Source of the DNA: Candidatus Kuenenbacteria bacterium
Lineage (GTDB): Bacteria; Patescibacteriota; Patescibacteriia; UBA2196; GWA2-42-15
Reading direction: 5' to 3'
Assembly: GCA_012798565.1 (NCBI GenBank)
Contig: JAAZMX010000056.1
Coordinates: 1 to 32,999, forward strand
DNA length: 32,999 nt
Shown here: positions 4,146-26,474 of the stretch, in pieces
Position numbering within the stretch: position 1 is the stretch's first letter
Layout: the number at the start of each line of letters is the position of its first letter
Position numbers and translations under genes: made by a program
The notes under the pieces: generated by a model
What the model saw: the letters and a program-made list of their open reading frames with translations, nothing else
Databases searched by the model: none
Told to the model about the DNA's origin: nothing

Positions 4146-7058
4146 TTATCCCCCACAGCATTTCTTATACTTTTTTCCGCTCCCGCACGGACACGGATCA
4201 TTTCTACCCACTTTTACTTTTTTCTCCACTGGCGCTTCTTTCAAATCACTGCTGGCCAAACCCGCTATTTTCGCCGGCCGAGTTGCACTCACCGGCGTCT
4301 GCGCTTCAGCGCCCCCATAATTCTTAATTCCAGCTTGTCCGTCGAAGCCTTGGCGAAGGCGGGATTCATAATTCCCTTCCTTTTCCGCTCCCTGGAATTT
4401 CAAATTTTGACTTTTGCCTTTTGAATTTTGACTTTGTTCTACTGGTGCCAGCCCTACTTTGTAAATTGAATAGGCTACCTGCTTTTGAATATTATTCTGG
4501 AGCATAATAAACATCTGATACGCTTCGCGCTTATATTCCACCAGCGGATCTTTCTGTCCGTAGCCTTGTAGGCCTATCCCCGTGCGCAAGTGGTCAATCG
4601 CGTCAATGTGTTCCACCCACAGCATATCAATCGCCCTGAGCAGCACCATCTTTTCCACCTTGAGCATCAACGGCGCCTCGGTATCCCCTGTCTCAATTTT
4701 ATTAATTTTTTCTTCCAGCTCATCATAGGCCTTATGCGCCAAGTCAACCAGATAATTTATCAAGGTATCTCTGGCCCTGACATCCGCTTTTTTGTCACCG
4801 GCAGTCTTTTGAATGTCGTCCATCTTTAATCTCACGTTCAGAGGCAATGGCACGATCGTGTCCACCACTTCATAAATTTCTTCCACATTCCATTCATGTT
4901 CATCTTCAGACATCGTATGGAAAGCGATCACCTGTTCAATCTCCGCCTCCACCATTTCCATAATCATCTCTCGCAAACTCTTATATTCTCTTGATTGCTT
5001 CTCCTCGTTCTCCTGATTACTGATTACTGATTGCTGATTACTGGTTGTTGGTTTTTGGTTGTTGGTTGCTACGCTTCCTGTGTTTTCCTGCTTTAATGAT
5101 TCAAAAATCTCTAATATTCTATCTCTCTTCCGATAAATCACCTCTCGGTGTTTATTGATTACGTCATCATATTCCAATAAATGTTTGCGGATATCAAAAT
5201 TGTGTCCTTCCACTTTTTTCTGCGCCGCTTCCAAGGACTTACTCACCATGGAGTTTTCAATCGGCATATCATCCGGCAAACCCAGTCTTTCCATCACTGA
5301 TTGAATGCGATTAGAACCAAAAATTCGCATCAGATCATCTTCCAGAGAAACATAAAAACGCGATTCGCCACTGTCGCCTTGCCGACCGCTGCGTCCGCGC
5401 AACTGGTTATCGATCCGCCTTGATTCGTGCCTTTCTGTGCCTATCACATACAATCCGCCGAGATTTTTTATTTCTTCCTTGTCTTCCAGTGTTCCATCCA
5501 CGCCGCCAAGCACAATATCCACGCCGCGGCCCGCCATATTGGTAGCCAGTGTTACCGCGCCTCTCTTGCCCGCTTCGGCGATAATCTGCGCTTCACGCTC
5601 ATGATTTTTGGCATTCAAAATATTATGTGGAATACCTTCTTGCTCCAAATAATGGGATAAAATCTCATTTTTATGAATAGAAATCGTGCCCAAAAGCACT
5701 GGCTGTCCTTTCTCATGTTTCTCACGCACGTCTTTGATTACTGCCCGAAACTTTGCTTCTTCATTTTTATAAATCAAATCCTGCCGGTCGATTCTCGCGA
5801 CTGGTCTATTGGTCGGGATAACAATCACATCCAAATTATAAATTTTGGAAAATTCTTCCGCCTCGGTCGCGGCCGTACCGGTCATTCCCGCCAACTTTTC
5901 ATACATCCGGAAATAATTCTGAAAAGTCACCGTCGCCATCGTCACTGATTCTTTTTTTATTTCTACGCCTTCCTTGGCTTCAATCGCCTGATGCAATCCT
6001 TCAGAATACCGCCGACCATACATCATCCGACCGGTGAATTCGTCCACGATAATAATTTCTCCATCTTTCACCACATAATCTCTATCACGTTTGAATAATG
6101 TGTGCGCCTTGAGCGCTTGCTCGATATGGTGTACTTCGCTGATGCCTTTATCAGTATAAATATTTTCCACGCCCAGCCATTGCTCCATTTTCTTTATTCC
6201 TTCCTCAGTCAAACTGGCCGAACGCATTTTTTCGTCAATATTATAATCCTCGCCTTCTTTCAATTGCGGCATCAGACTGGCGAACCGGCGGTATTTATCC
6301 GTCGCCTCTTCCGCCGGCGCGGAAATAATGAGCGGCGTCCTGGCTTCATCAATCAAAATAGAATCTACCTCGTCAATAATGGCATAATGAAAACCGCGCT
6401 GCACCTTGGCCTCGCTCTCCGGCGCCATATTGTCACGCAAATAATCAAAACCAAATTCATTATTGGTGCCATAGGTAATATCACAACTATAAGCTTCTTT
6501 CCTGCTACACGGTTTCAAATGTCTCAATTTTGGGTCATCCGTTTCCCCGTTTTCAAATTCAAAATCGTAAACAAAAGCCTCTTCGTGAATAATTGCGCCC
6601 ACGCGTAAGCCTAGGGCATCATACACTCCGCCAATCCAACCAGTGTCTCTTTTGGATAAGTAATCATTGACTGTCACCACGTGCACGCCCTTGCCAGTTA
6701 AGGCGTTGAGCGTAGCTGCCGGCGACACTGCATAAGAAGTCTTGCCCTCCCCGGTTTTCATTTCCGCTATTTTGCCGTCATGCAGAGCATAAGCGCCAAC
6801 CATCTGCACGTCAAAATGCCCAGAACCCATCCGTCGCCTAGCAGCTTCTCTCACCGCCGCGAAAACCTCCGGCAACAAATCATCCAAAGTTTTGCCAGCC
6901 GCCAAATCTTTACGCCAATTAATAGCCATCTGTTGAAGTTCCTCATCGTTCTTTTCTTGAAAAAACGTCTCCAGTGAACGTATTTTATCTACAATTGGCG
7001 TAATATTTTGGATATATTTTTGGTTTGGATCCCCAAAGATTGCTGTCAATAACCCCAT
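4146..7058 (-). CDS. secA: preprotein translocase subunit SecA
   Basis: MKTGEGKTSYAVSPAATLNALTGKGVHVVTVNDYLSKRD, TNNEFGFDYLRDN, C-terminal NDPCPCGSGKKYKKCCG SEC-C zinc motif. Confidence 0.98.
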   Translation of the reverse strand: MGLLTAIFGDPNQKYIQNITPIVDKIRSLETFFQEKNDEELQQMAINWRKDLAAGKTLDDLLPEVFAAVREAARRRMGSGHFDVQMVGAYALHDGKIAEMKTGEGKTSYAVSPAATLNALTGKGVHVVTVNDYLSKRDTGWIGGVYDALGLRVGAIIHEEAFVYDFEFENGETDDPKLRHLKPCSRKEAYSCDITYGTNNEFGFDYLRDNMAPESEAKVQRGFHYAIIDEVDSILIDEARTPLIISAPAEEATDKYRRFASLMPQLKEGEDYNIDEKMRSASLTEEGIKKMEQWLGVENIYTDKGISEVHHIEQALKAHTLFKRDRDYVVKDGEIIIVDEFTGRMMYGRRYSEGLHQAIEAKEGVEIKKESVTMATVTFQNYFRMYEKLAGMTGTAATEAEEFSKIYNLDVIVIPTNRPVARIDRQDLIYKNEEAKFRAVIKDVREKHEKGQPVLLGTISIHKNEILSHYLEQEGIPHNILNAKNHEREAQIIAEAGKRGAVTLATNMAGRGVDIVLGGVDGTLEDKEEIKNLGGLYVIGTERHESRRIDNQLRGRSGRQGDSGESRFYVSLEDDLMRIFGSNRIQSVMERLGLPDDMPIENSMVSKSLEAAQKKVEGHNFDIRKHLLEYDDVINKHREVIYRKRDRILEIFESLKQENTGSVATNNQKPTTSNQQSVISNQENEEKQSREYKSLREMIMEMVEAEIEQVIAFHTMSEDEHEWNVEEIYEVVDTIVPLPLNVRLKMDDIQKTAGDKKADVRARDTLINYLVDLAHKAYDELEEKINKIETGDTEAPLMLKVEKMVLLRAIDMLWVEHIDAIDHLRTGIGLQGYGQKDPLVEYKREAYQMFIMLQNNIQKQVAYSIYKVGLAPVEQSQNSKGKSQNLKFQGAEKEGNYESRLRQGFDGQAGIKNYGGAEAQTPVSATRPAKIAGLASSDLKEAPVEKKVKVGRNDPCPCGSGKKYKKCCGG
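4331..4364. repeat. palindromic repeat read through in frame in SecA C-terminal linker (peptide RLRQGFDGQAG)
   Basis: cagcttgtccgtcgaagccttggcgaaggcggga, just upstream of the SEC-C motif. Confidence 0.6.
5013..5069. repeat. degenerate 7-bp tandem repeat inside secA
   Basis: ctgattactgattactgattgctgattactggttgttggtttttggttgttggttgc, encodes ATNNQKPTTSNQQSVISNQ. Confidence 0.8.
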
Positions 7059-15489: not shown

Positions 15490-16809
15490 TTACGGAGTAA
15501 GTCGATTTATCATCCTCGGAAACGGAATCGTTTCCCGCACGTGCTGCAAACCACACACCCATGCCACAATTCGCTCTAAACCAAATCCAAAGCCACTATG
15601 TGGCACAGAACCAAATTTACGCAAATCAACATACCACTGAAATGCTTCCATTGGTAAATTGTGTTCCTTAATTCTTTTCACCAAAGTTTCATAATCTTCT
15701 TCCCTTTGCGAGCCGCCAATAATTTCGCCATAACCCTCCGGCGCCAAGAGATCGGCGTTCAGACAATATTTTGGATTTTGCGGATCACGCTTCATATAAA
15801 ACGCTTTGACTTCCGCCGGATATTTTTCCACAAAAATTGGCTTATCATACTGTTTAGTCAAAATTGTTTCATCATCAGCGCCGAGGTCATCCATCTCGCC
15901 GATATCGCTCCCCAATTCGCGTAATTTTTTTACAGCCTCAGCATGAGTAATTCTATAAAACGGCGACTTGATATTTTCCAAAGGTTTAATATTGCGTTCC
16001 AAAATTGCCAATTCCACTTTATTTTCCGCCAAAACTTTTTGCACCATGTAGGAAATTAATTCTTCTTGAATTTTTAAATTTTCTTCATGCTCCACAAATG
16101 CCGCTTCGGCATCCATCATCCAAAATTCGGTCAAATGCCTTCTGGTTTTGGATTTTTCCGCGCGAAATACTGGCCCAAAATCAAACACCCGACCAAGTGA
16201 AGCAATTGCCGCCTCCAAATACAGTTGTCCTGATTGTGATAAATAGGCCTTGCCTAAATCAAAATATTCCACGCCAAAAAGTGTGGTTGTGCCTTCACAC
16301 GCCGCCGGTGTTAAAATCGGCGAATCAAATTTTACAAAATTATTTTGATTCATCCATTCATAGCAACCACGAATCAAAGTATCGCGCACTTTCTGAATCG
16401 CCCATTGATGGCTGGAGCGTAGCCACAAATGCCGATTATCCAACAAAAATTCCGGCCCGTGTTCTTTTTTGGCAATCGGATATTCTTCCTCTGGTATCTG
16501 ATAAATTTTAAAATCTTTGACCTGCAATTCAAATTCACCCGGGTGTTTTGGGTGTTCGGTCACTACGCCAGACAGTTCAACCGAAGTTTCCAGAGTTATT
16601 TTCTGCGCCTCATTCCATTTTTCTTCGCCCCGATTGTCACCCTGAACTTGTTTCAGGGTCTCTTTTTCCAAAATACACTGGCAAAAACCAGTCCCATCGC
16701 GCAACTGCAAAAACATAATCGAGCCCGATGAGCGAAAATTATAAATCCAACCACGCAATGTGGCTTCACTATCTTTAAATTGCGCTAAATCTTTTATAAA
16801 AACATTCAT
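15490..16809 (-). CDS. asnS: asparagine--tRNA ligase
   Basis: LRGWIYNFRSSGSIMFLQLRDGTGFCQC, GVEYFDLGKAYLSQSGQLYLEAAIASLGRVFDFGPVFRAEKSKTRRHLTEFWMMDAE, GFGFGLERIVAWVCGLQHVRETIPFPR. Confidence 0.95.
   Translation of the reverse strand: MNVFIKDLAQFKDSEATLRGWIYNFRSSGSIMFLQLRDGTGFCQCILEKETLKQVQGDNRGEEKWNEAQKITLETSVELSGVVTEHPKHPGEFELQVKDFKIYQIPEEEYPIAKKEHGPEFLLDNRHLWLRSSHQWAIQKVRDTLIRGCYEWMNQNNFVKFDSPILTPAACEGTTTLFGVEYFDLGKAYLSQSGQLYLEAAIASLGRVFDFGPVFRAEKSKTRRHLTEFWMMDAEAAFVEHEENLKIQEELISYMVQKVLAENKVELAILERNIKPLENIKSPFYRITHAEAVKKLRELGSDIGEMDDLGADDETILTKQYDKPIFVEKYPAEVKAFYMKRDPQNPKYCLNADLLAPEGYGEIIGGSQREEDYETLVKRIKEHNLPMEAFQWYVDLRKFGSVPHSGFGFGLERIVAWVCGLQHVRETIPFPRMINRLTP
16636..16662. repeat. palindromic repeat read through in frame in asnS (peptide ETLKQVQGD)
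   Basis: gtcaccctgaacttgtttcagggtctc: CCCTGAAC..GTTTCAGGG inverted repeat. Confidence 0.65.
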
Positions 16810-17995: not shown

Positions 17996-18066
17996 CTAAG
18001 ACCTTTCTTAATTATTATAACACGCCATTGAAAAAAACAAAATTCTCTCTTATAATTAAAATCAAT

Positions 18067-20232
18067 ATGAAATTCCAACTTAAATCCAAATTTGAGCCCT
18101 CCGGTGACCAACCCCAAGCGATTAAACAATTAATCGCCGGTCTTGAGTCTGGACTAAAAAAACAAACTCTTCTTGGCGTGACTGGCTCGGGTAAAACTTT
18201 TACCATTGCCGGGGTGATTGAAAAAATTCAACTACCTACCTTAGTGATTTCTCATAATAAAACCTTGGCTGCCCAACTCTGCCAAGAATTTCGCGATTTC
18301 TTTCCAAATAATGCGGTGGAATATTTTGTTTCCTATTATGATTACTATCAACCTGAGGCCTATTTGCCTCATACCGACACCTATATTGAAAAAGAGGCGC
18401 AAATTAATGAAGAAATAGATCGCCTGCGCCATGCTTGCACTCAAGCTCTAATGACCAGACGCGATGTGATTATTGTTGCCTCTGTCTCGGCCATCTATGG
18501 CCTTGGTTCTCCTGAAGAATACGAGAGTATTGTTTTGCATTTACAACAAAATCAAAATTTAAATCGGGAAGAATTAACCAAGCAATTGATCAGTATGCAA
18601 TTTGAACGCACCAATGCCGATCTGCGTCGCGGTCAATTTCGTTTGCGCGGTCAAACTCTGGAAATCATGCCGGTTAATGAAGAAATTATCTATCGCTTAA
18701 TCATTGGCGAAAAAATTGAATTTATAGAATCTCTTGATCCCATCACTAGAAAAATAAAAAATGAATTAAAAGATATTTGGCTCTTCCCGGCCAAACATTA
18801 TGTCGCCAGCCCCGAAGCCCGGGAGCGTGCTTTCAAATCTATCAATGTCGAACTCAAAGAGCAATTAAACTATTTTAAAAAGAAAAATAAAATTTTAGAG
18901 TATGAAAGATTAAAACGTCGCACCCGTTATGATTTGGAAATGATTAAAAATATTGGCTATTGCAATGGCATTGAAAACTATTCCCGCCATTTTGAAAATC
19001 GCCAAGCCGGCGAACCACCTTTTACTTTGTTAGATTATTTTACTGCCAACACCCCTCCCCTTACTAAGGGTGGGGTTGGAAAAGATAATTTCCTCACCAT
19101 CATTGACGAATCTCATGTCACTCTCCCCCAAATCCGCGGGATGTACAATGGCGACAAAGCCAGAAAAGACACGCTTGTTGAACATGGGTTCCGACTACCT
19201 TCCGCTCGGGACAACCGCCCACTCAAGGCCTATGAGTTTGCTCAAAAAATAGACCAAATCATATATATGTCTGCTACACCGGCCGCGGACGAAATTCGCG
19301 AAAGCGAGCAAATTGTCGAACAAATTGTCCGACCAACTGGCTTGATTGATCCAGAAGTTATCATTAGACCAATCGTGGCCGGAGGGAATCTCCCCCTTGC
19401 CAAGGGGGAGTACTCCGCGAAGCGGAGGAAGGGGGTATCGCCAAAATCTCAAATCGAAGACCTCCTTATTCGCATTGAAGATCGTATTAAAAAACACGAA
19501 CGTGTTTTGGTGACTACTTTAACCAAACGCATGGCCGAGGACTTAACAGAATATTTAGAAAGAAAAAAAATAAAGGTTAAATATCTCCATAGCGACGTGG
19601 AAACCCTGGACAGAATCCAAACCATCACTGATCTGCGTCAGGGCAAAATTGATGTGATTGTCGGCGTCAATTTGCTCCGTGAAGGCTTGGATATCCCCGA
19701 AGTTTCTCTCGTGGCAATTTTAGACGCTGACAAAGAAGGATTCCTCCGCAATGAAACTTCTCTGATTCAAACTATTGGCCGGGCTGCTAGAAATGTCAAT
19801 GGCCAAGTGGTTCTTTACGCTGACAATATTACCAACTCTATCAAAGAGGCAGTCAAAGAAACCGACCGCCGGCGCAAAATTCAATTGGCCTACAACAAAA
19901 AACATGGCATCACCCCCAAAACTATTGAAAAAAATATTAAAAATATTTTAGAAGAATTTGGCATTACCAGCAAAGGCGACTCACGAACAGCCCGCCAGTT
20001 AAAAGATAAATCCCGAACCAAAGCTATTCTTTCTTTAGATCTCAAAGGGGACAAACGCCCCACCGCCGAAATTATTAAAGACAAAGAACAGCAGATGAAG
20101 CGAGCCGCTAAGGGATTAGAATTCGAATTGGCAGCGATTTTACGCGATGAAATTCACGAACTAAAAAAAATCCCAGGCGAGCGGAACCCCTCACCTTTCC
20201 ATAGTAGAAACAATAAACCTAAGCAACCATAG
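18067..20232 (+). CDS. uvrB: excinuclease ABC subunit UvrB (start moved from track TTG 18028 to in-frame ATG 18067)
   Basis: MKFQLKSKFEPSGDQPQAIKQL, GVTGSGKTFTIAGVI, SYYDYYQPEAYLP, IDESHVTLPQIRGMY, C-terminal UVR motif GLEFELAAILRDEIHELKK. Confidence 0.97.
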   Translation: MKFQLKSKFEPSGDQPQAIKQLIAGLESGLKKQTLLGVTGSGKTFTIAGVIEKIQLPTLVISHNKTLAAQLCQEFRDFFPNNAVEYFVSYYDYYQPEAYLPHTDTYIEKEAQINEEIDRLRHACTQALMTRRDVIIVASVSAIYGLGSPEEYESIVLHLQQNQNLNREELTKQLISMQFERTNADLRRGQFRLRGQTLEIMPVNEEIIYRLIIGEKIEFIESLDPITRKIKNELKDIWLFPAKHYVASPEARERAFKSINVELKEQLNYFKKKNKILEYERLKRRTRYDLEMIKNIGYCNGIENYSRHFENRQAGEPPFTLLDYFTANTPPLTKGGVGKDNFLTIIDESHVTLPQIRGMYNGDKARKDTLVEHGFRLPSARDNRPLKAYEFAQKIDQIIYMSATPAADEIRESEQIVEQIVRPTGLIDPEVIIRPIVAGGNLPLAKGEYSAKRRKGVSPKSQIEDLLIRIEDRIKKHERVLVTTLTKRMAEDLTEYLERKKIKVKYLHSDVETLDRIQTITDLRQGKIDVIVGVNLLREGLDIPEVSLVAILDADKEGFLRNETSLIQTIGRAARNVNGQVVLYADNITNSIKEAVKETDRRRKIQLAYNKKHGITPKTIEKNIKNILEEFGITSKGDSRTARQLKDKSRTKAILSLDLKGDKRPTAEIIKDKEQQMKRAAKGLEFELAAILRDEIHELKKIPGERNPSPFHSRNNKPKQP
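19049..19079. repeat. palindromic insertion in frame in uvrB (peptide TPPLTKGGVG)
   Basis: aacacccctccccttactaagggtggggttgg between DYF and FLTIIDESH. Confidence 0.75.
19390..19437. repeat. 48-bp palindromic repeat, copy 1, in frame in uvrB (peptide [16 protein letters not shown])
   Basis: CTCCCCCTTGCCAAGGGGGAGTACTCCGCGAAGCGGAGGAAGGGGGTA; 47/48 identical to 21074-21121. Confidence 0.95.
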
Positions 20233-20274
20233 CCGCAGGCGAGCACTGCACTCTAAGTTCTATTTTTCAATCTC

Positions 20275-20394
20275 ATGAATAGGAAAGGTGCGTGGGTGAA
20301 GATGGCCGCCAAAAGTTTGGAATTTGAACTCGCTGCCATCCTGCGTGATGAGATTAAGGAGTTGCGACACGAATTGACACGACGCTCTAAGTAG
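20275..20394 (+). pseudogene. diverged second copy of the UvrB C-terminal UVR motif: MNRKGAWVKMAAKSLEFELAAILRDEIKELRHELTRRSK*
   Basis: Same frame as uvrB after intervening TAG and TAA; SLEFELAAILRDEIKEL vs GLEFELAAILRDEIHEL with many synonymous differences. Confidence 0.8.
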
Positions 20395-20477
20395 AATATT
20401 ATTAAACCTAATCAAATCTTTTCACTTACCCCCTATATCTCCACCTTAGGGCGGTATTTGTGTATTGTGGCTTTTTC

Positions 20478-20592
20478 TGTCATTCCCGCCCGCTTCGCCG
20501 GAGCTTTAACGAGGCGAGTAAAAACGGGAATCCAGACAAAAAAACTGGATCCCCGGGTCTCCCCGCCCTGGGCGGGCCGCCCGAGGATGACA
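20478..20592. mobile_element. composite REP/MITE-like palindromic element
   Basis: TGTCATTCCCG ... GAGGATGACA ends, internal ATCCAGacaaaaaaaCTGGAT hairpin and CCCGCCCTGGGCGGGC palindrome; no ORF. Confidence 0.65.
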
Positions 20593-20601
20593 ATTGCTTT
20601 C

Positions 20602-20633
20602 ATGCTTTAATGCTTTAATGTTTTAATGAATTA
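20602..20633. repeat. degenerate 8-bp tandem repeat (ATGCTTTA) abutting uvrA start
   Basis: ATGCTTTA ATGCTTTA ATGTTTTA ATGAATTA. Confidence 0.85.
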
Positions 20634-20635
20634 CT

Positions 20636-23266
20636 ATGCAAGACAAAATCACCATCAAAGGTGCGCGCGAGCACAACCTAAAAAATATTAGCTTGGAATT
20701 ACCAAGAAATAAAATGATTGTTTTTACAGGACTGTCTGGTTCTGGCAAGTCCAGTCTGGCTTTTGATACCATTTTTGCTGAAGGCCAACGGAGATATATT
20801 GAATCTCTGTCTTCTTACGCCCGCCAATTTTTGGGTGGCATGCAAAAACCTGATGTTGATGAAATTGATGGTTTATCTCCGGCCATTTCTATTGATCAAA
20901 AAGCGCACAGCGCCAATCCCCGCTCCACCGTGGCCACTATCACCGAAATTTACGATTATCTACGCGTCCTTTATGCGCGCATTGGCGAACCGCATTGCCC
21001 CATCTGTGGCACCAAACTTTCCAAAATGACCACTGATGAAATGGCAGTGCAAGTTCATAAAAACCTCAAAAAACTCCCCCTTGCCAAGGGGGAGTACTCC
21101 GCGAAGCGGAGGGAGGGGGTACTGTCAAAAACTCAAACAGATAACGAACTTCTTATTCTCTCTCCTGTTGTCCGAGGACGCAAAGGCGAATATTATCAGA
21201 TGCTTTATGATTTCTATAATTCTGGTTTTTTGGAAGTCCGCGTGGATGGCAAAATAAAATCTCTGCGCAATCGCATTATCCTGCAAAAAAATTTCAAACA
21301 TACCATTGAGGTGGTTGTTGACCGCCTGCCTTTAACTCAAGAAAAAACCAACGGCCAAGAGTTCAACCGTCGCCTAAATGAAGCCATCGAAGCCGCCGTG
21401 GATTTATCCAATGGTCTTTGTGCTATCATCTATCCAAACAAAGAAGAACAAATTTTTTCTACCGAATATTCTTGCCCCCATGACGGTTATTCATTTCCAG
21501 AAATTGAACAGCGTCTTTTTTCTTTTAATTCTCCCTATGGTTATTGTGAACATTGTACCGGTCTCGGCACTGACGGCTTGTTTTCTGAAACTCCTTGTCC
21601 CAAATGTGGCGGCAAAAGATTAAATGATAACGCCCTCTCCGTAAAAATTAATAACAAAAACATTTGGGATTTTACCAATGAAACTATTGGCCAGGCCAAA
21701 ATCTTATTGGATAAAATTGAAAATAATATTTCCGCCCGCGATCTGGAAATCGCCGGTGTGGTTTTAAATGAAATAAAAAATCGTCTGCAGTTTATGTTGG
21801 ATGTCGGTTTACATTATATTAGTTTAAACAGAAAAGCCGGCACGCTGTCTGGCGGCGAAGCCCAAAGAATTCGCTTGGCCTCGCAAATCGGCACTCGATT
21901 AGTGGGTGCGCTTTATGTCTTGGATGAACCGACGATCGGTTTGCACCAAAGAGATAATGAAAAATTAGTTAATGCTCTTAGAAATTTGGCTGATGTTGGC
22001 AACACTATTATTGTCGTCGAACACGATGAAGACACAATTTTAATGAGTGATTGGATTGTGGACATCGGCCCCGGCGCTGGCGTCAATGGCGGTAACATTA
22101 TTTTTTCCGGTGACACAAATTTTATTCTGAATCCCGCTGCCAAGCGGGATGAAGAATCTCGTGGTAAAATTATGTCTATCGGTGATCCTAAAAAATCCCT
22201 TACCGGCCAATATCTTCGCCGAGAACTCACCATTCCCCTACCACAAAAACGTCGCAAAATTGATTCTTCCACGCCTCAAATAAAAATTACCGGCGCTTCA
22301 GAAAATAATTTAAAAAATATTAAAGTGGCCATACCGCTCCGTCGTTTTGTTTGCCTGACTGGTGTTTCTGGCTCTGGCAAATCCACTCTGATGGAATCCA
22401 TTATTTATCGCACTATTAATAATCGCCTCAATCATACTAAATACAAAGTCGGCGCCCATAAATCCATTACCGGCACTGAATATATTGATAAAATTGTTGA
22501 AATTGACCAATCGCCCATTGGCCGCACGCCACGCTCCAACCCGGCCACCTACACCAAAGCTTTTGATGAAATCCGCAATCTTTTTGCTATGGCCCCTGAA
22601 GCGCGCATGAAAGGCTTTGGTCCTGGTCGTTTTAGTTTTAACGTAGAAGGTGGCCGCTGTGAAAAATGTGCCGGCCACGGCACCCTCCAGATTGAAATGC
22701 ATTTCTTGCCCAGCGTGGAAATTGTCTGCGATGCCTGTCGGGGCCAAAGATTTAACAAAGAAACTTTGGCTATTCATTATAATAATAAAAATATTTCCGA
22801 TGTTTTAAACATGACCATTGCCGAGGCCGAGAAATTTTTCAAAGACATTCCTTTTATTTACGATAAACTGAAAATATTAAATGAAGTCGGTTTGGATTAT
22901 TTGACCCTTGGTCAATCGGCCACTACCCTATCCGGTGGCGAAGCTCAAAGAATTAAACTCTCCAAAGAATTGGCCAAACGCGACACTAGCAAAACCCTGT
23001 ATTTACTGGATGAGCCGACCACTGGTCTGCATTACGATGATGTTAAAAAACTAATTATGGTTTTACAACGCTTAGTTGATCGAGGCAATACTATTTTGGT
23101 CATTGAACACAATTTGGATTTAATCAAATGCGCTGATTGGATCATTGATCTTGGGCCCGAAGGCGGCGATCAAGGTGGTGAACTTATTTTTGCCGGCACA
23201 CCGGAACAAATCGCTCAATACAAATTTTCTCACACTGGAGAATATCTACGAAAAATTTTGAAATAA
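20636..23266 (+). CDS. uvrA: excinuclease ABC subunit UvrA
   Basis: [71 protein letters not shown], two LSGGEAQRI signatures. Confidence 0.98.
21074..21121. repeat. 48-bp palindromic repeat, copy 2, in frame in uvrA (peptide [16 protein letters not shown])
   Basis: CTCCCCCTTGCCAAGGGGGAGTACTCCGCGAAGCGGAGGGAGGGGGTA. Confidence 0.95.
22131..22163. repeat. palindromic insertion in frame in uvrA (peptide [12 protein letters not shown])
   Basis: ATCCCGCTGCCAAGCGGGATgaagaatctcgtg. Confidence 0.7.
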
Positions 23267-23747: not shown

Positions 23748-25079
23748 ATGTCAACAACCACCCAACAACTAAAATCCCTTCCCCCCTCTCCCGGTATTTA
23801 CCTCTTTTATAATTCTAAAGGTGAGCTTATTTATATTGGCAAAGCCACTTCCCTAAAAAGCAGAGTGAAAAGTTATTTTTCCATTGGCCAAAAAAATCTC
23901 CGCCCAATTGAATCCATGATCCACGAAGTGAAAAATATTAAAACTATTAAAACCGATTCAGTTTTAGAAGCCATAATTTTAGAAGGCAATTACATTAAAA
24001 AATATCGTCCAAAATATAATGTGGATTGGAAAGATGATAAAAGTTGGAACTATTTAGCCATCACCAATGAAAAATTTTCCAGACTAATAACCATCCGCCA
24101 ACATGAGATCAACTTATTGAAAGAAAAAAGTAATTGGAAATTGGAAATTGGAAATTGGAAATTTTTATATGGCCCTTTCCCCTCCCTCAATACTGGTGAA
24201 ACCCTAAAAATTCTCCACAAATTATTTTACGTTTCCCGTTGTTCTCCTCCCCTCCTGCCTGAGGAGGGGGTAGGGGGTGGTGGGAGAAAAAAACCCTGTT
24301 TTGACTATCAGCTCGGATCTTGTCTTGGTGTTTGTACTGGCGAAATTACAGGCAAAGATTATCGGGAAAAAGTTATCAAACCTTTAACCGAATTTTTAAA
24401 AGGTAACAAAAAAAGACTGCTGAGTAATCTAAAAAAACAGATGACTCTAGCTTCGCGTCAACAAAATTTTGAAGAAGCTGCGAGATTGCGTAATCAAATC
24501 AAATCCTTGTCGCATATTCAGGATGTCACTTTATTAAATAAAGATTTATTCACAAATAATTTTGGAAATTGGAAACCTGCCCGTCCGGCAGGCGGGTTGG
24601 AAATTGGAAATTCGCTTCAATCCGTTAGGATTGAAGCCTATGACATTTCCAACCTCGGCCCCACTGGCAAGGTCGGCAGTATGGTTGTTTTTGATAATCA
24701 CGGCCCAGTCAAATCCGAGTATCGCAAATTTAAAATCAAAACCGTCTCTGGTCAAAGCGATGTCGATTGTTTAAAAGAAATTATTACTCGCCGTTTTAAT
24801 AATAATTGGCCCTTGCCAGATTTAATTCTTATTGATGGTGGCGTTCCTCAAGTTAATGCTGTCAAAAATGTTTTGCCTACCGTAGGGGCGCAAAATCTTG
24901 TGCCCAGGGTTATTGGCATCGCCAAAGGCCCCACCCGCAAAAAAAATGAATTTATTTTTGACAAAAACAATCAAAAAATCGCTGGCTTTATTCAAGCCAA
25001 CGAAAATTTGCTAATCCACGCCCGCGATGAAGCCCACCGCTTTGCGATTAGTTATCAGAAAAAATTAAGAAAAATATAA
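23748..25079 (+). CDS. uvrC: excinuclease ABC subunit UvrC, short form
   Basis: GIYLFYNSKGELIYIGKATSLKSRVKSYF (GIY-YIG), CFDYQLGSCLGVC, UVR motif NFEEAARLRNQIKSL, RIEAYDISNLGPTGKVGSMVVF, LILIDGGVPQVNA. Confidence 0.96.
   Translation: MSTTTQQLKSLPPSPGIYLFYNSKGELIYIGKATSLKSRVKSYFSIGQKNLRPIESMIHEVKNIKTIKTDSVLEAIILEGNYIKKYRPKYNVDWKDDKSWNYLAITNEKFSRLITIRQHEINLLKEKSNWKLEIGNWKFLYGPFPSLNTGETLKILHKLFYVSRCSPPLLPEEGVGGGGRKKPCFDYQLGSCLGVCTGEITGKDYREKVIKPLTEFLKGNKKRLLSNLKKQMTLASRQQNFEEAARLRNQIKSLSHIQDVTLLNKDLFTNNFGNWKPARPAGGLEIGNSLQSVRIEAYDISNLGPTGKVGSMVVFDNHGPVKSEYRKFKIKTVSGQSDVDCLKEIITRRFNNNWPLPDLILIDGGVPQVNAVKNVLPTVGAQNLVPRVIGIAKGPTRKKNEFIFDKNNQKIAGFIQANENLLIHARDEAHRFAISYQKKLRKI
24132..24163. repeat. 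8-bp tandem repeat (ATTGGAAA) in uvrC
   Basis: aattggaaattggaaattggaaattggaaat, peptide NWKLEIGNWK. Confidence 0.85.
24245..24286. repeat. palindromic insertion in uvrC (peptide SPPLLPEEGVGGGGR)
   Basis: cctcccctcctgcctgaggagggggtagggggtggtggga, inverted repeat CCCCTCCTGCCTGAGGAGGGG. Confidence 0.75.
24561..24612. repeat. palindrome flanked by TTGGAAATTGGAAA units in uvrC (peptide NWKPARPAGGLEIGN)
   Basis: ttggaaattggaaaCCTGCCCGtcCGGCAGGcgggttggaaattggaaa. Confidence 0.8.
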
Positions 25080-26184: not shown

Positions 26185-26310
26185 ATAATTATATTTATTA
26201 ATTAATAAATATTATCTTACACTTAAACATAATTTATGTTTTTTACAAACAATATAAAAACTTTTACTGGGGGCCGTCTCGCAGATTCTTGCCCAGTTGA
26301 ATGACCGGGT

Positions 26311-26388
26311 GAACCGAGGACCTACTCCTTACCTGCCCGCGACACTTCGCTGCGCTTGCGTAGCGATGCGAGCGGGGCCATGGAGTTG
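26311..26388 (-). pseudogene. partial tRNA-Thr copy interrupted by a 46-bp palindromic insert (26333-26378)
   Basis: gaaccgaggacctactccttac + insert + catggagttg, the same segments contiguous in the intact tRNA. Confidence 0.8.
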
Positions 26389-26402
26389 TCGCCGTGACCA
26401 CA

Positions 26403-26474
26403 GCCGTTGCTCGGATTTGAACCGAGGACCTACTCCTTACCATGGAGTTGCTCTACCAACTGAGCTACAACGGC
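26403..26474 (-). tRNA. tRNA-Thr (anticodon GGT)
   Basis: GCCGTTG TA GCTC AGTTGGTA GAGC A ACTCC ATGGTAA GGAGT AGGTC CTCGG TTCAAAT CCGAG CAACGGC; CCA not encoded. Confidence 0.93.

Follow-up and report, generated by a model that had tools for sequence, protein, structure and literature searches.

Short palindromes lying in frame inside protein genes, uvrA, uvrB and truB included, are already known from Rickettsia and other bacteria. Rickettsia palindromic elements (RPEs), described as 105-146 bp long and Rickettsia-specific (PMC2229807), and the protein-coding palindromes of Wolbachia occupy unrelated conserved genes in frame, and the translated inserts are presumed to be tolerated (PMC10969869, PMC2229807). 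The passages of PMC3733652 on intragenic repetitive extragenic palindromes (REPs) report RPE-4/6-type repeats in R. conorii uvrB and RPE-1 in truB. They place intragenic REPs of several phyla in uvrA, uvrB/excinuclease ABC, UvrD/REP helicase, recBCD and truB (tRNA pseudouridine synthase), with multiple inserts per gene that are proposed to occupy loops or linkers. The same passages judge the bias to repair genes hard to call fortuitous, and they hold no mention of Patescibacteria. Miniature inverted-repeat transposable elements (MITEs) such as ERIC, the Neisseria Correia element and YPAL are short non-autonomous repeats whose open reading frames (ORFs) are joined to host genes (PMC2229807, PMC10969869). 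Here we describe a 48-bp two-hairpin element present in frame in both uvrB and uvrA of a Candidatus Kuenenbacteria bacterium (Patescibacteriota). The stretch of DNA analysed, called here the window, is the entire 32,999-nucleotide contig JAAZMX010000056.1 (C17) of a 1.06-Mb draft genome in 75 contigs (GCA_012798565.1, hereafter G000).

We favour the view that the 48-mer is a REP/RPE-like mobile, non-autonomous palindrome that inserts at many sites and of which selection keeps the in-frame copies in tolerant loops (probability about 0.82). The identities of the two host genes are firm. uvrB (18028-20232, + strand) matches the NCBIfam equivalogs NF003673 and TIGR00631 with 968 and 963 bits, as well as 15 solved UvrB chains; its product is 734 residues long counted from a mechanically set start, with homology from about residue 15. 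uvrA (20636-23266, + strand) codes for an 876-residue UvrA matching NF001503 with 1255 bits and solved UvrA chains. The element lies at 19390-19437 in uvrB and at 21074-21121 in uvrA, on the + strand of both, and adds 16 residues to each protein. The first-pass annotation had reported one palindrome in frame in both genes, and its positions, the common phase and the 47/48 identity all hold. The element is GC-rich and its six reading frames are all open. Folded as single-stranded DNA, it forms two adjacent hairpins, at 19390-19410 (CTCCCCCTT-GCC-AAGGGGGAG) and 19413-19427 (CTCCGC-GAA-GCGGAG) in the uvrB copy and at 21074-21094 and 21097-21111 in the uvrA copy, all on the + strand. This fold had been proposed before and is reproduced, with a first stem of 9-10 bp instead of the 7 bp then given and a second stem of 6 bp. 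The minimum free energies of the two 48-mers are -16.0 and -17.1 kcal/mol (z -4.4 and -4.5), and none of 200 dinucleotide shuffles is as stable. The 5' CTCCCCC and 3' GGAGGGGGT ends are near-complementary.

The 48-mer is an insertion in both genes. UvrB of the same-genus comparison genome (G001) displays the empty site, RPIV-SSTKNK-SQIEDLL, relative to which the G000 protein is longer by a net 17 codons. The uvrB copy is missing from every UvrB orthologue recovered, some of which hold unrelated inserts at this position, and it has no counterpart in the 15 aligned chains of solved UvrB structures. G000 and G001 have the uvrA copy in common (LPLTKGEHSVKRREGV, 44/48 nucleotides identical), and it is found neither in the other orthologues recovered nor in the solved UvrA chains. 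The expectation that distant orthologues would not conserve the inserted residues is thus borne out, the same-genus UvrA being the only other carrier. An assembly artefact of the metagenome bin would be conceivable in a 75-contig draft with Ns in which shared repeats sit at many contig ends. It is largely refuted, and we give it next to no weight: both ORFs run on in frame into orthologous sequence at either side, the independent genome G001 carries the uvrA copy as well, and the uvrA insert of the same-order relative G007 matches, together with its flanks, a public record (L259, Patescibacteria group bacterium isolate STB_112).

Further related copies, which the first-pass annotation had left to be searched for, exist elsewhere in G000. 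One diverged full-length copy is found in truB, in a frame shifted relative to the uvrA and uvrB copies, and another on contig C44, where it overlaps no detected ORF. In mnmA there is a partial copy on the opposite strand, and the 5' hairpin alone occurs in a PEP-synthase-like gene. Among the copies in coding DNA, two or more frames and both strands are represented. The element had been described as a mobile repeat preserving the reading frame. The uvrA and uvrB copies are indeed in frame, but since all six frames are open and at least two of them, on both strands, are used, frame preservation is not necessarily a property of the movement itself, which gives no sign of respecting the frame. 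Survivorship accounts for the bias to in-frame copies, because out-of-frame insertions in needed genes would be lost.

The family extends beyond this genome and beyond its phylum. A composite pattern, CTCCCCCTTnnnAAGGGGGAG-N8-38-GGnAGGGGGT, run against named genomes matched 63 stretches, with hosts that include Bacteroidota, Ignavibacteria, Rhodothermales, Nitrospinota, Marinamargulisbacteria, Andersenbacteria, Peregrinibacteria and other Patescibacteria. Aligned by eye, the copies have a common architecture made of the fixed 5' hairpin CTCCCCCTTnnnAAGGGGGAG, a T[A/C] step, a variable second hairpin and the GGAGGGGGT end. The counterpart of hairpin 2 varies in sequence across phyla and is usually self-complementary: pairing averages 4.1 bp within copies versus 3.2 bp in chimeras of different copies, and reaches at least 5 bp in 38% of copies versus 15% of chimeras. 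Of 381 genomes of the class, 56 have the 5' hairpin, in up to 18 copies, and none has the reversed control pattern. Outside G000, TsaD, CysRS, radical-SAM and UvrD-type proteins carry the element in frame, inside their domains or between them, tsaD and cysS being essential-type genes. With the empty uvrB site and the copies in unrelated genes and frames, this shared architecture upholds the proposal of a mobile in-frame palindrome analogous to the Rickettsia elements. Goat-rumen Bacteroidaceae RGIG3638 (L280; also L283) has many copies, with two in frame in a radical-SAM ORF and one in TsaD. Searches for the element in phage records, plasmid records and viral contigs gave no hit and thus no carrier among these, and an Rfam scan of the window returned only one tRNA.

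The uvrA copy is the older of the two, because G001 also has it while its uvrB site is empty; it predates the split from the sister species or has been homogenised, and the uvrB copy is younger. The nearest relative of the uvrB copy is the uvrA copy of G000. These two copies are neighbours, differ hardly at all and share orientation and frame, and the assembled G000 has no other full copy equally close to them. The uvrB copy could therefore come from local duplication, template switching or conversion of the uvrA copy 1.6 kb away, with no general mobility. Its flanks, however, are native uvrB on both sides and not uvrA sequence, and family members that have diverged occupy unrelated genes of other contigs, as well as other phyla, which implies that dispersal happens anyway. 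Local copying bears on the donor and route of the uvrB copy alone; there it is a live alternative, which we hold as possible though not probable. Within the uvrA copy, 15 of 16 third positions are unchanged between G000 and G001, versus 53/80 locally (P 0.013) and 484/862 gene-wide (P 0.0013), and among the 863 windows of 16 codons in uvrA only the copy reaches at least 15/16. The three codons that do differ all alter the amino acid. The pattern, in small numbers, fits a constraint on the DNA hairpin or homogenisation, and not protection of the peptide.

Palindromes in protein insertions are a genome-wide feature of G000. The comparison of G000 with a nearly complete G001 (all but about 52 kb of contig C29 and a short end piece of C23) covered 629 orthologue pairs and recovered 93 insertions of at least 7 residues, 67 of them in G000. 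Controls were segments of the same gene. Among 63 testable G000 inserts, 12 have a hairpin at P<=0.01 (0.6 expected) and 19 fold better than 95% of the control segments (3.2 expected). The insertion zones, 2,700 residues in all, contain 13 GC-rich hairpins with stems of 8 bp or more, against 11 in about 178,000 aligned residues, an odds ratio of 78 (P 4e-18). Among the hosts of hairpin inserts are UvrB (two sites), UvrC, a UvrD-type helicase with a nuclease domain, TruB, MnmA, an RsmA/KsgA-type methylase, a tetrapyrrole-methylase-family protein and the linker of a Memo-AMMECR1 fusion. In this fusion (G000:C63:2800-4383) the inter-domain linker holds a two-hairpin palindrome. Some of the inserts lie in the window. 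The second in-frame palindrome of uvrB (19054-19083, + strand; peptide PPLTKGGVGK; hairpin P 0.047) has its core CTCCCCTTACTAAGGGTGG at 19055-19073, is unlike the 48-mer in sequence and is missing from G001 and nearly all orthologues. uvrC carries an in-frame palindrome at 24249-24281 (+ strand; PLLPEEGVGGG; CCCCTCCTGCCTGAGGAGGGG; P 0.006) and a second small insert at 24591-24611 (+ strand; GGLEIGN; P 0.031) adjoining a CCTGCCCGTCCGGCAGGCGGG hairpin; neither is in the G001 orthologue. Small inserts without a G001 counterpart are also seen in SecA (ESRLRQGFDG, 4338-4367, - strand) and AsnRS (KQVQGDNR, 16630-16653, - strand). Their peptides resemble other repeat-derived peptides, but as their hairpin signal is not significant we leave them out of the palindromic inserts.

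The same loops are hit repeatedly. The UvrA loop that holds the 48-mer is filled by unrelated palindromes in G007, G031 and G018. In the corresponding UvrB loop, G031 has another palindrome, and G007 and G018 have repeat-like sequence rich in AT; at the second UvrB loop (19054-19083 in G000) G018 also has a palindrome, a different one. They represent independent insertions at shared, tolerant positions. Aligned to solved UvrB, the 48-mer follows the conserved RPTGL-DPE segment and precedes the start of the QI-DL-I helix, a position that we take to be an inter-domain linker; the UvrA insert presumably lies in the UvrB-binding region. AT-rich or low-complexity repeat-like sequence stands in frame in UvrB of the records L109 (G007), L111 (G018), L118 and L129 (e.g. 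KSEIRNQKSGLTDYELQVTDYKLQ) and resembles dispersed AT-rich repeat families of G000, such as a 134-member cluster. The UvrA loop of L147 (G031) combines a widespread GTCATTGCGAGGAGC...GCAATCTC-type repeat with a C-rich palindrome, and a repeat similar to this type is found in an insert of G000:C75.

The concentration in repair genes raises the idea that the peptide, for some function, or the hairpin, as a regulator, was selected in both UvrA and UvrB, for instance to tune their interaction or the mutation rate. Of the 19 G000 hairpin inserts at P<=0.05, five fall in uvrB, uvrC or the uvrD-like gene, where 0.24 would be expected, and leaving out uvrB three of 17 are in repair genes (P 4e-4). G007 and G031 also have uvrA inserts, with one in a uvrD-like gene of G007, and the intragenic REP passages of PMC3733652 describe the same bias and speculate on mutators. 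Different genomes, however, hold unrelated sequences at the same loops, every codon change between the two uvrA copies alters the peptide, and truB, mnmA, tsaD and further genes also carry the element, read in other frames. The enrichment test is itself partly circular, the window having been chosen for uvrA and uvrB and containing uvrC as well, so that the repair-gene bias in G000 is suggestive only. We regard selection for the peptide or hairpin as unlikely. Similarly improbable, in our estimate, is a broader proposal, that of an undescribed cross-phylum family of two-hairpin palindromes that favours uvrA, uvrB, uvrC and uvrD of reduced-genome bacteria, at entry or by retention, and alters repair. 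If true, a selfish repeat would tune the mutation rate of its host through excision-repair genes.

For the mobile, non-autonomous palindrome that we favour, the following course can be proposed. Copies would enter the chromosome at many positions and in both orientations, probably transposing in trans through the hairpin-forming single strand, and those disrupting a needed gene would be lost. The survivors would have a net length that is a multiple of three, no stop codon, and a position in a surface loop or inter-domain linker, where they would be translated as a presumably neutral peptide. The uvrB copy would have arisen after the sister-species split from the same source as the uvrA copy, possibly from the uvrA copy itself.

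Several observations weigh against this scheme. Hairpin enrichment in the insertions of G001 is not significant (1 vs 10, P 0.13). The net gain of 17 codons, set against an element of 48 nucleotides, leaves no clean target-site duplication definable at the empty uvrB site. The conserved third positions of the uvrA copy indicate that either homogenisation or a hairpin constraint acts too. Finally, no gene that would mobilise the element could be linked to it. A classical REP mobilised by a REP-associated tyrosine transposase (RAYT), a Y1/HUH enzyme acting in trans, would agree with the hairpin shape, the REP size and the intragenic habit, and G000 has three matches to the Y1 transposase family PF01797. 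This is doubtful as both 48-mers lack the GTAG and CGTC tags on either strand. PF01797 is, in addition, undetected in G007, G074, G149, G230, G340 and G013, which have 16, 18, 10, 10, 7 and 4 copies of the 5' hairpin, respectively. This distribution gives no support to RAYT as the sole mobiliser, and we did not retain it in that role.

Like RPEs, the element is in frame in unrelated protein genes (uvrA, uvrB, truB, mnmA and others), but it is 48 bp long, has two hairpins and occurs in Patescibacteria and other phyla, which set it apart from RPEs by description. With the GTAG/CGTC REPs it shares a short hairpin, multiple dispersed copies and an occasional intragenic location; it differs from them in being a fixed composite of two hairpins plus the GGAGGGGGT end, and both 48-mers are free of CTAC and GACG as well as of the tags themselves. 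It is short, non-autonomous and joined to host genes by an open frame like MITEs, whereas these measure about 100-200 bp and mostly have terminal inverted repeats as well as target-site duplications, of which none could be defined at the empty uvrB site. A literature search on Patescibacteria and palindromic repeats, covering titles and the beginnings of abstracts, gave nothing on point, and one made with the literal sequence of the element gave nothing relevant. The novelty lies in the family of elements, in the hosts that carry it and in the loops that are hit recurrently; it does not amount to a new category. In-frame palindromes, so far mainly known from Rickettsia, Wolbachia and scattered REP-rich species, are now visible in Patescibacteria, and the advance consists of a genome-wide measure (78-fold), an empty site within the genus and an architecture common to several phyla. 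The independent palindromes in the same loops make it testable how elements move without gene breakage and why excision-repair and tRNA-modification genes are repeatedly hit.

The surroundings of the two genes show other features. After the uvrB stop, a second and diverged UvrB C-terminal coding segment (AAKSLEFELAAILRDEIKEL...) spans 20284-20370 of the window (with 20190-20300). CACCTTTCC...GGAAAGGTG inverted repeats separate the two C-terminal segments, and the downstream one is closer to the native end in G001 than is uvrB's own end. No UvrB match was obtained in G002-G005 (same family) and G008 (same order), genomes of 84-95% completeness that all have UvrA-type matches. UvrA of the window is of a short type, without about 115 residues of solved UvrA (chain positions 303-417), and a second, longer paralogue is encoded on contig C55 (G000:C55:210-2984). 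The GC-rich intergenic stretch upstream of uvrA (20470-20600), with GTCATTCCCGCC...GAGGATGACA, is like other common dispersed repeats. Further downstream, an exact 24-nucleotide direct repeat is found at 26310-26333 and 26418-26441, its second unit overlapping a predicted tRNA gene (26402-26474).

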